IMG/VR virus record: IMGVR_UViG_3300051212_000149
Coordinates: 1 to 23,099 of that record
Source: a virus
Length of the DNA stretch: 23,099 nt
Direction: 5' to 3' (one strand)
Shown here: piece by piece, positions 1,121-22,893 of the stretch
Numbering within the stretch: the stretch's first letter is position 1
Layout of the letters: the number at the start of each line of letters is the position of its first letter
Program-made: the position numbers and the translations under genes
The notes under the pieces: model-generated
What the model saw: only the letters and a program-made list of their open reading frames with translations
Told to the model about the DNA's origin: nothing
Database searches by the model: none

Positions 1121-1681
1121 TCAAGCGTCTGGGAATCTAGTATCATCAACAGCATCACCAGTAATCATGCTTCCAGCAACTAGTGTTTCAGACTTGACTC
1201 TAAAATTACCGTGCATGTCAGTATAGGTGGTGACTCCAACCCATCCAGCATGTGCTACACCATAAGCACCTGCTTTTCCACCAACTGTGGTCACACCAGC
1301 AACTCCTGCCTCTGTTGTATCTACACCAAAAACTGAGGAATATCTATTTGATTTTGCATCTGGTGCTTTATAAGCAGAATCTTCAATTGAAGAAATAGGT
1401 CTTTGTGTGATGAAATAAGAAGCACCACTAATTAATCCAGTTATTGGATGTGGAATCAGGTACTGAGTTGTAGCGACTGATGCGATAGTATTGCTTGTTA
1501 CAGAAGAAATAACTGCGTGACCGTAAGTTGCGCCAGCACCAACAACAATTACATCACCTTCACTTACAGTGAATCCGGTAGTAGCGAACGTCGTTCCAGT
1601 TCCTGTGATAACCTCTGTTGAAAGGTTGATTTGAACGGTCCCAGCCTGTCCAACTAAATCTTTATTGCCCCAAAGAGACAT
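1121..1681 (-). CDS. Virion structural protein of the cyanophage WGNKD family, 186 aa
   Basis: The N-terminus MSLWGNKD is followed by a beta-rich, Thr/Val/Gly-rich stretch (TVQINLSTEVITGTGTTF) typical of phage decoration or surface proteins. Around residues 140-186 come AHAGWVGVTT and ETLVAGSMITGDAVDDTRFPDA-like endings, which I associate with structural proteins of T4-like cyanophages. AAGGAAAC sits just upstream of the ATG. A perfect TATAAATA late promoter lies at 1713-1720, 32 nt upstream, which fits late expression. The exact position in the virion (head decoration versus tail or neck) is unknown. Confidence is high that this is a gene and moderate that it is a virion protein. Confidence 0.8.
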   Translation of the reverse strand: MSLWGNKDLVGQAGTVQINLSTEVITGTGTTFATTGFTVSEGDVIVVGAGATYGHAVISSVTSNTIASVATTQYLIPHPITGLISGASYFITQRPISSIEDSAYKAPDAKSNRYSSVFGVDTTEAGVAGVTTVGGKAGAYGVAHAGWVGVTTYTDMHGNFRVKSETLVAGSMITGDAVDDTRFPDA

Positions 1682-2098: not shown

Positions 2099-2106
2099 TA
2101 TTTATC
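2099..2106 (-). promoter_or_regulatory. Probable late promoter, GATAAATA
   Basis: This is a one-mismatch version of TATAAATA on the minus strand, overlapping the stop codon of the 585-aa gene and 30 nt before the ATG of the 57-aa gene. Its position matches the other late promoters here. Confidence 0.55.
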
Positions 2107-3862
2107 AATCAACAGATCCGTATCTTGGATCTTTCGAAATATCTGGCCTGCGACCATAACCAGCTCTACCAGATGGATACATTCTTCTACCTTTCTTGTC
2201 TCTAAGAGATCTGTTATGTGATCTTACATCTGGATTATCATTTCTTTCACCTGGTTCATCCATTTCTCTTCCTTCAGAAGCAACCATTACAATAGGATTT
2301 TTGGCACCCATTGCTCTTAATTTATTCTTGATCAAATTAATCTTCGCGTAATCGCCGCGAGAATCCTTCTCAATTTCTTTAGCAGTATCATTACTATCAC
2401 ATCCACAATCTGCTGCTTCTGCTACTTTTTCGGGAAGACCTTTATGCTTAGTCTTAGCAAATTTCTTTGCTTCTTTCTTAGTCATACTCTTAGCAGCTGC
2501 TTCAACCTCAGGAGATGCTTCTCCCTTCTTCATCTTACCCTTCTTGCGGGAATAAACCATTGCCATAAAACGCTGCTGTGCCTTACTTATTGCTTTTTCA
2601 GCAATCAGTTCACCTTCAATCTCAGTATGAGCATAAACTGCCTTTGGTCCCTTCATTCCAGATTGAGTGCTATCTTCTGGTGAAACCTTTACAACACCAG
2701 AGGAATAATTATCCACTTTGGTTGGGTTTATTTTTCTACCTTGACCCTCTGTACTATCAGTTCCTTCCGACCACAGAAAATCTTCCTTTTTAACCCCACC
2801 CATTTGATCCTTACCAAGTCTTCCAGCGATTATATCTCCTCTGGTGACTTTATCATATGGAGGATAATTATTTGCTAGATTACCATCATTCTTCTTACGC
2901 GATTTCTTTTCATCAAGCATTTCACCTTCTAGTTCATATGAATTTCCTAGCATTTGATCAATTTGTTTTTTCTTTTCATCATTTTGCTGTTTGATTTTAT
3001 CAGCAACACCTTTTGCTCTATCATAAACTGCCTTACCAGCGAGTGCAGTGCCAGCAGCAAGTCCAGCTTTAATACCAAGTCCAACCAATGGATTTTCATC
3101 AAGTTGCTCACCTTCCGGTTCATAAGAAGCAGAAACAGTTTTTCTCTTTTCGATAGCAGCACCAATAGCGGAGCGGCGCTTCATAATATACTTGTCATTT
3201 GGATCATTATGCTTACCATCATTATCTGGATCACTGTCTTCCTTACCGACTGGATCTAGTTTTGGTTTTTTACCACCACGGCGGCGCCCACCACCAGTAG
3301 CACGTGCAGTTTCTTCTCCTCTCTTTCTCTCACCCTCTCTTGGTTCACCATACTCAGTCATCTCAACTTTAAGACCCTTTGCTCTGAGTTGAGTAATCTT
3401 ATCACGAGTTCCATATCTTACATAAGAGTTTCCAGTCTTAGGATCTGTAACTCTAATCTTATACTTCCTATCTCCAAGTGCATTGAGTTCTTCTAAGTAA
3501 TCTGGAACAACTTCTTCAACACCCTCAACAAATACTTTAAACATTGCATTCGCAATATTAGTTGCAACAGAATCTTCCATCATTGGAATAAAGTCTTCTG
3601 CAACAGCAGCCCTCTTTGATGCCATCTGCCTTGCTCTTGCCTTTACAGCAGGAATCGAAGTTGATTTAGCAATTCTTTGGAGAACCATTCTTTCCTGAGT
3701 TGCTGGATCTGCTTTCTTACCAGCAAGCATTTTCTTAACCTCGTAACGAGAATCATAAACAAGTTGTCTTGCCCTTTTTTCGATGCCAGCAGCAGCATCA
3801 GCACCAGGCTTTGCTTCACCACCTTTTCTAGATGGAAGTTCCTCAAAAATATTGTTACTCAT
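2105..3862 (-). CDS. Large charged late protein with DUF3008-like segment and repeated cleavage-like sites, 585 aa
   Basis: N-terminal residues 28-95 are basic and helical (EKRARQLVYDSRYEVKKML). Residues 130-160 form a small folded-looking region (YKIRVTDPKTGNSYVRYG). Residues 170-205 are Arg/Gly-rich, and 208-220 contain an Asp-rich stretch (DSDPDNDGKHND) resembling a calcium-binding loop. Three similar cassettes follow: YEPEGEQLDE (247-256), YELEGEMLDE (309-318) and TEIEGELIAE (413-422). Residues 423-480 match DUF3008 (AISKAQQRFMAMVY, SMTKKEAKKFAKTKHKGLP). The C-terminus is basic and tyrosine-rich. Each cassette ends in an (L/I)xE motif like the T4 gp21 prohead protease site. I infer an internal head or core protein processed during maturation. 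A late-type box lies 36 nt upstream. No Shine-Dalgarno is seen at the start. Confidence 0.8.
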   Translation of the reverse strand: MSNNIFEELPSRKGGEAKPGADAAAGIEKRARQLVYDSRYEVKKMLAGKKADPATQERMVLQRIAKSTSIPAVKARARQMASKRAAVAEDFIPMMEDSVATNIANAMFKVFVEGVEEVVPDYLEELNALGDRKYKIRVTDPKTGNSYVRYGTRDKITQLRAKGLKVEMTEYGEPREGERKRGEETARATGGGRRRGGKKPKLDPVGKEDSDPDNDGKHNDPNDKYIMKRRSAIGAAIEKRKTVSASYEPEGEQLDENPLVGLGIKAGLAAGTALAGKAVYDRAKGVADKIKQQNDEKKKQIDQMLGNSYELEGEMLDEKKSRKKNDGNLANNYPPYDKVTRGDIIAGRLGKDQMGGVKKEDFLWSEGTDSTEGQGRKINPTKVDNYSSGVVKVSPEDSTQSGMKGPKAVYAHTEIEGELIAEKAISKAQQRFMAMVYSRKKGKMKKGEASPEVEAAAKSMTKKEAKKFAKTKHKGLPEKVAEAADCGCDSNDTAKEIEKDSRGDYAKINLIKNKLRAMGAKNPIVMVASEGREMDEPGERNDNPDVRSHNRSLRDKKGRRMYPSGRAGYGRRPDISKDPRYGSVD

Positions 3863-3877
3863 TGGGGGAAAGATTGA

Positions 3878-5098
3878 TTACTTACTTTTTCTATACTTAT
3901 TTATGAATTGTCTTCCCCAAGTACGTCCAGGAACCATTGATTCAACATACTCACGATAAGCATCAGTTCCAACAAGTCTTTGGTCGGCAGGAACTCCACT
4001 TCTATTCGTAAGTTTTGCTTCCATCACATCTTTAATCCAAGACTTAAACATAATATGATCTTCTGTAACACAAATAAGGTAGTTGGTCCCTCTACGAATA
4101 ATTCTACCAACTAAACCTGTATTGAGATTTTCAACCAATTGACCAATTTTGAATATTGCTTCACTCAAATAATTCTCACGAAGAGATCTTTGATCAAATT
4201 TAGGAGCAATTTCCCAAACTTCTGCAACCTGATCTTGAATACCCATTGCAGCACGAACAGTATCAAAAACTGCTCTTGCATCTTTTGGTCTCATTTCTGG
4301 TGGCATTCCTAAACGGAAAGTTTTAAAATCTCCTTCCGCAGCAGCAAGACGCATTCTTGATGCAGAAAGACCTTCCACACCATCGGAGTCTGGATCACGA
4401 TCACCAGCAGAAAGTACCTCAATATTATCAAAAGCATAAAGATTGCCATTGTAATTATTAGCAAGCTTATCAAATTCCTTGACTCTATCAGCACCACCAA
4501 CAATTCTCACATTTGTATATCCATCGTTATGTGCTTTTTTGAGAACATCAAAAATCGTTCTTGTGCTTGCATCATTCATAATCCTTTCACTATGTTGAGG
4601 AAACATAGATCTCATAAGTGACACTTTTGTATCAGGATCGAGTGGATTCTTTTTCTTATCCTGACTACGAGAAGGAACAATCATATAATCACTCCCTTCC
4701 TGCTCTGCCGATGCAGCAGCAGTATCCATTAGTTGAAGGTGTCCAAGATGAGGAGGATTAAAACGACCAAATGCAATTGTCAAAGTTCCCTTTGTCTTCT
4801 CAACTGGTAAGAAATTAACAGGTGGTGCTTCTTGTGCAACTGGTTGTGGAGCAGGTGCCTGTTGCTGCAATGCTGGATCTACAAAATTTGGATCTGAAAT
4901 GTTCTTTTCAGTTTCAGTCTGAGCGGGATCTTTACCAACTGCCTGGCGCTTATTGTAAAACTTTAATCTTCCCTTTTCAGTCTTTGCAACAAACTCACCG
5001 TCCTTATACCAACCGCCATGACCGTCCCCCTGCAACCCAAGTCTTGCTGCCTGTTGTGATGCAGTGGTTTCGATTAAAAACTGGAAGAAATTTTTCAT
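3878..5098 (-). CDS. Nucleotidyltransferase (NMN adenylyltransferase-like) with phage-specific N- and C-terminal domains, 406 aa
   Basis: Residues 104-290 form a cytidylyltransferase-like Rossmann domain. GRFNPPHLGH (111-120) carries the HxGH nucleotide-binding motif, and GLSASRMR (243-250) fits the S-x-S/T-x-x-R motif that contacts phosphates. This resembles NadM/NadR-type nicotinamide-nucleotide adenylyltransferases, with NMN and ATP as likely substrates, though other cytidylyltransferase-fold substrates are possible. Residues 1-58 are a separate module (MKNFFQFLIE start, GDGHGGWYKDGEFVAKT) that I associate with other cyanophage proteins. A Pro/Gln/Ala linker (75-97) follows. Residues 315-406 form a third module (ENLNTGLVGRIIRRG, FINKYRKSK end). 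The leader resembles the T4 capsid-targeting sequence. The start is coupled by TAATG to the 71-aa gene. Confidence 0.85.
   Translation of the reverse strand: MKNFFQFLIETTASQQAARLGLQGDGHGGWYKDGEFVAKTEKGRLKFYNKRQAVGKDPAQTETEKNISDPNFVDPALQQQAPAPQPVAQEAPPVNFLPVEKTKGTLTIAFGRFNPPHLGHLQLMDTAAASAEQEGSDYMIVPSRSQDKKKNPLDPDTKVSLMRSMFPQHSERIMNDASTRTIFDVLKKAHNDGYTNVRIVGGADRVKEFDKLANNYNGNLYAFDNIEVLSAGDRDPDSDGVEGLSASRMRLAAAEGDFKTFRLGMPPEMRPKDARAVFDTVRAAMGIQDQVAEVWEIAPKFDQRSLRENYLSEAIFKIGQLVENLNTGLVGRIIRRGTNYLICVTEDHIMFKSWIKDVMEAKLTNRSGVPADQRLVGTDAYREYVESMVPGRTWGRQFINKYRKSK
3898..3905 (-). promoter_or_regulatory. Probable late promoter, CATAAATA
   Basis: This is a one-mismatch late box on the minus strand, inside the last codons of the nucleotidyltransferase gene and 36 nt before the ATG of the 585-aa gene. 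The spacing is close to that of the perfect box at 1713-1720. Confidence 0.5.
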
Positions 5099-5313
5099 TA
5101 CTTACTTTTTTTACTAAGTTCAATTGATATTGCTCTTTCTTTTGCAATAATGTATTCTAAGACACTTTGTCTGATCTTTATATATTTATTCTTATCTTGT
5201 TTTTTCTTTGTAGAACTTACTTCTCCATCAAAAGTAATATAAACATATTGAATGAAATCTTTAAAATCTTTTCCTTTAAAGTCTTTAATAAGTCTTTTAA
5301 TATAATTTTCCAT
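5098..5313 (-). CDS. Small basic hypothetical protein, 71 aa
   Basis: The protein is lysine-rich and helical (MENYIKRLIKDFKGKDFKDF start, ELSKKSK end). The start at 5313 directly follows the stop of the 408-aa gene (TAAATG) and has AGGTGAGTTAA upstream. The stop overlaps the nucleotidyltransferase start as TAATG, so the three genes form a coupled unit. An AATAAATA string at 5183-5190 lies within it, 85 nt before the next start, and could be a weak internal late promoter. I recognise no family. The basic, late-operon character fits a DNA- or capsid-associated small protein, but this is inference only. Confidence 0.75.
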   Translation of the reverse strand: MENYIKRLIKDFKGKDFKDFIQYVYITFDGEVSSTKKKQDKNKYIKIRQSVLEYIIAKERAISIELSKKSK

Positions 5314-21632: not shown

Positions 21633-22256
21633 TCAAACACCTTTTACTTTCTTTTTATCTTCTTTATCATCAAATCCTGGCATTTGATAAACTTTTCCAC
21701 CAGTAATACCTTTTGGTCTACCACCATCACCAGAAGCTCCAGGTTTTCCTCCACTATAAGCCATTCCTCTATTCTCAACAATACTCTGCTTCCACTCTTC
21801 ACTCATATTTGCCATAATAGCAAGAGCTGCCTTATTGGTGTCTGCGTAACCTTCTGCAACCAGGTGCTCAAGAATGTAGTCGAAAAAGTCAGTTTCTACT
21901 TCTTCTTTCATTTTCTTTTCTTCTGGTCTCTTACCAAAAGTTTTATGAACCATTTTATCTAACTTATCGTGAAACTCACTTTCCTTCTCTTTACTTGCAC
22001 CTTCTTCTTCCTTTTCACCCTTTTCTTCCTCCTTATCAAGTTTTAACTCGTCAGGAGCATACTTCATTGTTTTACCATCTTCACGCTTGACGGTATAGTA
22101 CTTACCCTTGCCTTCTGGGTCAACTTTTACAATCTCACCTTCCATTCCACTTGCCTTACAGACAACTTCATCACCAACCTTAAAGTGGGATTCAGAAATA
22201 TTTGTATAAACAGAAGCATATGCTTCCATTAAACCTTTAACTTGTTTTGCTTCCAT
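21633..22256 (-). CDS. Late protein with capsid-targeting-like leader and KOW/SH3-like segment, 207 aa
   Basis: The leader MEAKQVKGLMEAYASVY is nearly identical to the next gene upstream and contains LME-A, a gp21-type cleavage pattern. Residues 24-72 (HFKVGDEVVCKASGMEGEIV, then YYTVKREDGKTMKYAPDEL) look like a small KOW/SH3 barrel. Residues 74-120 are very acidic/basic. Residues 124-161 (FFDYILEHLVAEGYADTNKA, ANMSEEWKQSIVE) match the paralogue. The C-terminus is Gly/Lys-rich. A late-type AATAAATA box lies 20 nt before the ATG. Nothing points to an enzyme. I infer a head-internal or virion protein. Confidence 0.8.
   Translation of the reverse strand: MEAKQVKGLMEAYASVYTNISESHFKVGDEVVCKASGMEGEIVKVDPEGKGKYYTVKREDGKTMKYAPDELKLDKEEEKGEKEEEGASKEKESEFHDKLDKMVHKTFGKRPEEKKMKEEVETDFFDYILEHLVAEGYADTNKAALAIMANMSEEWKQSIVENRGMAYSGGKPGASGDGGRPKGITGGKVYQMPGFDDKEDKKKVKGV
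22206..22256 (-). repeat. 51-nt direct repeat encoding the shared leader, copy 1
   Basis: The first 51 nt of the 207-aa gene match the first 51 nt of the 187-aa gene (22843-22893) at 48 positions. All three differences are silent or nearly so (one codes Gly versus Asp at position 8). This near-identity at DNA level suggests recent duplication or gene conversion of the leader. Confidence 0.85.
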
Positions 22257-22329: not shown

Positions 22330-22893
22330 CTAACCTTTCTTTTTACCTTTTTTACCACCATAAGTTTTATACATTGCAGCAGCTGCTACTGCCGCTGGAT
22401 CCTCTGCACCACCTTCTTTTGCTCTCTTCTCTACTTCTTTAAATCCAGTTCCAGGACCAGACTTACCAATTTCTTCACCCTCAACTCTCTTCATGGCAAG
22501 TCTATGACGACCAGCTTTGGTTCCATATTTTGCTTCGATAATTGACTCTCTCCACTCTTCACTCATATTAGACATAATAACGAGTGCTGCCTCTTCAGTA
22601 TCAGCATAACCTTCATCAAGAAGATGACCCTTTACAAGATCAAAAAGATCTACATCTTGGTTGAGATTTTGCTTAATTTTTGCACCCTGTTCTGCCTTAG
22701 TTACAGTACCACGACCCTTTCCAACGGGAGCAATAACCTTACCAATTGCCTGAACGACTGGATTTTTAGCAGCAGCATCAAGACCTTTTTCTACTGCTTT
22801 TTGAAGATCTTCCGAAACAACTTCTTGTTCTTCTGGTTGGGCATAAACAGAAGCATATGCTTCCATCAAATCTTTAACCTGTTTTGCTTCCAT
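22330..22893 (-). CDS. Late protein with capsid-targeting-like leader, 187 aa, paralogue of the 207-aa protein
   Basis: The leader MEAKQVKDLMEAYASVY is followed by an Ala/Lys/Val-rich helical part (residues 28-80). Then comes the shared block LFDLVKGHLLDEGYADTEEA (83-102) with SNMSEEWRESIIEAKYG (108-124). (L/I)xE sites occur at LME (9-11), LDE (92-94) and IIE-A (118-121). The C-terminus is Ala-rich then strongly basic (KTYGGKKGKKKG), which could bind DNA. A perfect TATAAATA lies 20 nt before the ATG, so late expression is well supported. No Shine-Dalgarno is clear. A processed internal capsid protein is my inference, and no enzymatic motif is seen. Confidence 0.82.
   Translation of the reverse strand: MEAKQVKDLMEAYASVYAQPEEQEVVSEDLQKAVEKGLDAAAKNPVVQAIGKVIAPVGKGRGTVTKAEQGAKIKQNLNQDVDLFDLVKGHLLDEGYADTEEAALVIMSNMSEEWRESIIEAKYGTKAGRHRLAMKRVEGEEIGKSGPGTGFKEVEKRAKEGGAEDPAAVAAAAMYKTYGGKKGKKKG
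22843..22893 (-). repeat. 51-nt direct repeat encoding the shared leader, copy 2
   Basis: Matches 22206-22256 at 48 of 51 positions, on the same strand. It codes for the leader of the 187-aa protein. Confidence 0.85.

Follow-up and report, generated by a model that had tools for sequence, protein, structure and literature searches.

A T4-type capsid-targeting leader proposed for a virion nucleotidyltransferase and for unrelated proteins of T4-like cyanophages

In the capsid-targeting sequence of the T4 internal protein IPIII, residues 4 and 7 serve mainly for targeting and residues 8 and 10 for processing (PMC9026906). Several virion proteomes of T4-like cyanophages list puzzling enzymes. One of these is the product of T4-GC190, a cyanophage core gene, which was among the proteins detected in S-SM1 virions and listed as virion structural (Sullivan et al. 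2010). Homologues were reported in the virions of S-SCSM1, S-CREM2 and S-SZBM1, which brings the T4-like cyanophages with a virion-detected member of the family to at least four. Both Wang et al. 2022 and the authors of the S-CREM2 study proposed that the enzyme is carried in the virion and acts on host NAD, and both acknowledged possible carry-over in virion mass spectrometry. Since carriage and a role in NAD metabolism are already published for homologues, the injection proposal is not new. No paper on a cyanophage capsid-targeting sequence was found, in a search that fell short of most subscription journals, and the leader as an explanation of virion carriage is absent from the literature searched.

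The window (the whole stretch of DNA analysed here) corresponds to a virus fragment from IMG/VR, 23,099 bases long, whose replication genes follow the order of P-SSM2-like T4-type cyanophages; its virus is T4-like and infects ocean cyanobacteria. Positions 3878-5098 of the minus strand encode a nucleotidyltransferase of 406 amino acids belonging to T4-GC190/phrog_395 ('cytidyltransferase'): it matches phrog_395 at 1.7e-102, is 67% identical to PSSM2_194 from P-SSM2, whose record is noted T4-GC 190, and is homologous to the family over its full length, with conserved synteny in the vicinity of mazG, primase and nrdA. Its translation begins MKNFFQFLIE-T, as the first-pass annotation of this DNA had read it, and residues 1 to 10 (5069-5098, minus strand) constitute a leader of the capsid-targeting type with a predicted cut after E10 (LIE-T). 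Like the T4 sequences, it occupies about ten residues at the extreme N-terminus and combines an aromatic residue at position 4 and F7 with L/I8 and E10; carriage by otherwise unrelated phage proteins was found in relatives, not within the window fragment. The match to T4 MKTYQEFIAE at M1, K2, F7 and E10 proposed in that annotation is exact against the T4 record, and its statement that the T4 internal proteins share this leader holds for IPII and IPIII, but not for IPI, which starts MKTFKEF and has its (I/L)xE site at residue 19.

The conservation of the leader was studied in homologues collected independently of it. One of the search patterns used for a first set of 80 homologues was the leader itself, so that this set was excluded from the conservation test and a second one was collected with catalytic-domain patterns only. 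The second set comprised 80 loci, three of which had no 5' end, leaving 77 complete homologues: 71 start with the strict form MK-x-[FYL]-xx-F-[LIF]-x-E, five with a form one residue shorter (MKFKQFLSEA and similar) and one with a displaced E (MKSFFQFLES). Among the 70 distinct proteins with a strict leader, K2 is present in 100%, F4 in 96%, F7 in 100%, L/I8 in 93%, E10 in 100% and A11 in 89%, the constancy of F7 and E10 being partly a product of the filter, and positions 3, 5, 6, 9 and 12-13 vary. The fixed positions 4, 7, 8 and 10 are those which in T4 participate in targeting (4 and 7) and in processing (8 and 10). The enzyme of pelagiphage HTVC008M is kept without E10, and one relative (L063) presents D10, a residue which blocks cutting in T4. 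A lack of conservation among homologues had been named beforehand as an outcome that would speak against the leader; conservation is what the catalytic-domain-only set gave. The stronger idea that the leader always accompanies the enzyme fold was rejected, stand-alone homologues from jumbo phages having no leader.

Chance resemblance was rejected as well. The leader was matched by 14 of the 6881 ORF starts considered in seven phage genomes or segments, against a mean of 0.24 and a permutation maximum of 2 under a composition-preserving null in which residues 2-13 were permuted; the regular expressions used had been widened after T4 and cyanophage examples were seen, the key positions coming from T4 genetics. 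In a 50-kb segment of T4, the only leader matches were IPII and IPIII. The gp21-type protease (PF03420), which would perform the cut, is present in all nine of the related genomes, records and controls searched, and cyanophage gp23 retains L-x-E at the T4 cleavage place (SFLAE-A, LLTE-A, ILTE-A and ILTE-T, compared with SFLTE-A in T4, the hyphen marking the cut). No gp21 gene was seen in the 23-kb window, a fragment without head genes.

A search of other cyanophage proteins, recommended in the first-pass annotation, revealed the leader on unrelated proteins, among them a SAM lyase, a kinase, DUF6267 and DUF5661. S-CREM2 is a distant cyanophage of cluster C whose virion proteome has been published (PMC10665884). 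In this phage, the leader is carried by the SAM hydrolase (SAM lyase) gp6, the small protein gp13, the kinase gp14 and the cytidylyltransferase gp154, and all four are in the virion proteome, a set of 52 out of 219 annotated proteins (p = 0.0029, on small numbers). The Cas9-like nuclease gp12 of the same phage, also in the virion list, has a displaced leader, LRFASFMAEA, slightly further in. In S-CRM01, the leader-bearing genes g127-g131 are contiguous and place side by side the enzyme (MKLFNQFFKEA), g129 (MKKLDQFLTE), a kinase (MISFDQFLSE), g131 (MNFSEFLEA) and an N-module protein. Searching IMG/VR with the bare DNA pattern of the leader gave 80 loci, 79 of them at ORF starts and 55 in the family of the window enzyme; the remaining ones are mostly unrelated and include DUF6267, DUF5661, DUF192, metallopeptidase-like and polynucleotide-kinase-like proteins. 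A second small family keeps a leader in two distant cyanophages (MKTFKQFMSESVNISGDFNGNLY at L110 44215-44535 and MKSFKSFLSESVNISGDFNGNLY at L321 32311-32628), and further leader-like starts, MKSLSQFIIETQ and VKTYQQFNES, are observed in P-SSM2_211 and _213 (L082 31595-33316 and 34760-35512).

This distribution bears on the possibility that the enzyme is targeted to the head and cut there as a component of the prohead core or of packaging, and not as a delivered enzyme. Such a role would suit a core gene listed as virion structural and an enzyme which sits in a run of virion-type genes, but it is implausible for a SAM lyase, a kinase or, with its displaced leader, a Cas9-like nuclease; moreover, G119, H120, S245 and R250 are invariant, while leader-less stand-alone versions occur in jumbo phages, and we regard this alternative as unlikely. 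The same distribution argues against a still less probable one, according to which the protein is an ordinary metabolic enzyme made late, its detection in virions reflects carry-over, and its N-terminus forms an amphipathic helix that serves a local purpose, for instance dimerisation. In favor of the latter, AlphaFold2 (AF2) models residues 4-19 of the window enzyme as a helix, and the two groups of proteome authors allow for carry-over. Against it, the leader is common to unrelated proteins and to T4 IPII and IPIII, conservation tracks the positions of the T4 capsid-targeting sequence, and at least four phages have yielded members of the family from their virions. The correspondence between leader and virion detection has exceptions: the leader protein S-SCSM1_30 is unflagged as a virion protein in its annotation, and S-SZBM1_191, another one, is absent from the available portion of the S-SZBM1 virion table. 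Conversely, a virion NMNAT without such a leader was reported for the non-T4 phage S-CBWM1, and other routes into the virion therefore exist.

The surroundings of the gene provided additional evidence. ATAAATA, the motif at the heart of late promoters of the T4 type, has nine copies on the minus strand of the window and none on the plus strand. One copy (5183-5189, minus strand) lies 91 nt upstream of the ATG of the enzyme, and others lie within 110 nt upstream of ORFs of 585, 70 and 186 amino acids and of two ORFs with the start MEAKQVK; none was found within 110 nt upstream of the replication genes of the window. The 585-amino acid ORF (2105-3862, minus strand; motif 42 nt upstream, at 3898-3904) is adjacent to the enzyme and homologous to S-SCSM1_92 and _93 (4.8e-18 and 6.9e-12), both annotated as virion proteins, and the 186-amino acid ORF (1121-1681, minus strand; motif 38 nt upstream) is homologous to the virion protein S-SCSM1_95 (3.1e-28). 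Two ORFs at the other end of the window (22330-22893 and 21633-22256, minus strand), with the motif 26-27 nt upstream, have a common start, MEAKQVK[DG]LMEAYASVY, then diverge, and resemble the virion protein S-SCSM1_89 (MDSKTFNSLSEAYAAVY); their L-x-E followed by AY may represent a second class of head-targeting leader. The minus-strand ORF at 1896-2108 is listed with a TTG start, which is probably incorrect; 39 nt behind an ATAAATA there is an ATG, at about 2066.

Behind the leader, the nucleotidyltransferase domain (residues 103-285; 4244-4792, minus strand) is recognized by Pfam as CTP_transf_like (1.1e-9) and modelled by AF2 with a pLDDT of about 88. It contains, as the first-pass annotation had noticed, an HxGH motif (HLGH, residues 117-120, within PHLGH at 116-120; 4739-4750, minus strand) and an SxSxxR motif (SASRMR, residues 245-250; 4349-4366, minus strand). 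G119 is invariant, and so are the second His of the former (H120) and the first Ser and the Arg of the latter (S245 and R250) in 26 relatives. The two flanking modules described at that stage are real. The N-module (residues 12-56, GDGHGGWYKDGEFVAKTEKGRLKFYNKRQ; 4931-5065, minus strand), with strands modelled at 29-47, is shared with the Cas9-like nuclease and the kinase found in S-CREM2 virions (comparisons at 1.3e-10, 6.7e-6 and 1.5e-4); outside the enzyme family, gp12 and gp14 were its only carriers among the sequences then compared, both at L103 7704-12846, with the leader displaced in the former and full in the latter. The C-module (residues 308-365; 4004-4177, minus strand) is a small beta domain according to comparison and modelling and has a weak match in the window ORF 21633-22256. 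Elsewhere, it occurs as an ORF of its own, seemingly mis-annotated as 'ribonucleotide reductase alpha subunit' (L236 2340-2618, S-RIM44 gp099, phrog_4808).

Which reaction this domain catalyzes is a separate matter. The modelled domain matches NadD, CoaD and NMNAT structures in Foldseek at 1e-6 to 1e-4, and it combines (H/T)xGH and SxSxxR in a nucleotidyltransferase fold, as NMN adenylyltransferases do. The NCBIfam equivalog models for NMNAT remain far below their cut-offs (23 bits against 112 for TIGR00482, 18 against 341 for TIGR01526), and assigning a substrate from sequence or fold had to be abandoned: NCBIfam, a PDB profile search and Foldseek all fail to separate NadD, CoaD and other nucleotidyltransferases, and the modelled fold cannot tell NMN- from phosphopantetheine-adenylyltransferases. 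The structure prediction suggested at the outset thus yielded the nucleotidyltransferase fold but not an adenylyltransferase identity, NadD and CoaD being matched equally. The first proposal of a packaged NMNAT-like enzyme is supported in part, strongly as regards head targeting. The enzyme may perform adenylyl or cytidylyl transfer, with NMN as one possible candidate, and an NMNAT role is a reasonable guess from sequence with the curated models far below cut-off.

A different function was considered for the same delivered enzyme, namely nucleic-acid end chemistry or RNA repair instead of NAD metabolism, performed with DUF6267 with or without a P-loop kinase. DUF6267 adjoins the enzyme in many loci, shares phrog_455 with a nucleotidyltransferase-containing protein and carries the leader in some copies, and at two loci (L118 11230-12507 and L152 8262-9539) leader, nucleotidyltransferase and P-loop kinase are fused in one chain. 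The DUF6267 model (AF2 pLDDT 87) has no significant fold match in the PDB, the best one being a tRNA ligase with an E of 0.58, and a P-loop kinase following a nucleotidyltransferase equally fits NadR, so that we give this function a minor, though not negligible, share of belief; the association with DUF6267 and the kinase fusions fit either chemistry. DUF6267 was also tried as a ligase and this was rejected, the KxDG motif being its only mark and the fold match not significant. In many phages DUF6267 lies upstream of the enzyme with that motif in the form K-W-D-G-A-P (L134 6418-7623, L299 1541-2731, L083 4809-5783), and pelagiphage HTVC008M encodes a similar kinase in a neighboring gene of its own (L235 1100-1762).

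Taken together, the position-specific conservation, the leader on unrelated virion proteins, the published proteomes and the late-promoter motifs strongly support targeting of the enzyme to the head through a leader with a gp21-type site, and the predicted cut after E10 is probable. We propose that F4 and F7 would attach the precursor to the prohead core, that a gp21-type protease would cleave behind LIE (residue 10) while the head matures, in the way that it cleaves gp23 at L-x-E, and that the mature nucleotidyltransferase would stay in the head among the DNA. By analogy with T4, it would most likely be ejected with the DNA and could act ahead of any phage gene expression. The same leader, sometimes with the same N-module, would load other unrelated proteins and form a small injected repertoire. 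As a whole, we consider this scenario fairly probable. We lean more cautiously toward its generalization, in which one N-terminal address of T4-like cyanophages, MKxFxxF[LI]xE, sometimes with a shared DGHG N-module, loads a variable set of injected effectors (nucleotidyltransferase, SAM lyase, kinase, Cas9-like nuclease, DUF6267 and metallopeptidase-like proteins). Since related viruses put the leader on unrelated proteins, it may reveal which proteins are injected and, if the generalization is true, would allow the injected effectors of marine and freshwater phages to be predicted from sequence. Such a ten-residue rule grounded in T4 genetics would account for the enzymes seen in virions, allow more of them to be predicted in genomic and metagenomic data, and provide a tag for packaging proteins into cyanophage heads. 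Should the cargo act immediately on host metabolism or defence, our view of how infection begins, in its first minutes, would change for these abundant photosynthetic hosts.

Compared with known systems, the window enzyme does not differ from cyanophage T4-GC190 (phrog_395: P-SSM2_194, S-SM1_190, S-SCSM1 ORF91), being a member of the same family. The virion NMNAT-like proteins of S-SCSM1, S-CREM2 and S-SZBM1 are its homologues, for which delivery and an NAD role were proposed; S-CBWM1 gp39, which published work places in the same group, has neither leader nor modules and almost no sequence similarity. The enzyme resembles NadD, NadM, NadR and CoaD in its fold and in the (H/T)xGH and SxSxxR motifs, but falls under every curated equivalog cut-off, which precludes assigning a substrate. 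Finally, it shares with the T4 IPI-IPIII system the N-terminal decamer with an aromatic residue at position 4, F7, L/I8 and E10, and a diverse cargo behind a constant leader, with a gp21-type protease in its relatives. Its body is not of the IPI-III type, the leader alone matching: the T4 internal proteins are small and have no enzyme domain, whereas the cargo predicted to be packaged here by its leader is a nucleotidyltransferase of 406 amino acids with two extra modules.
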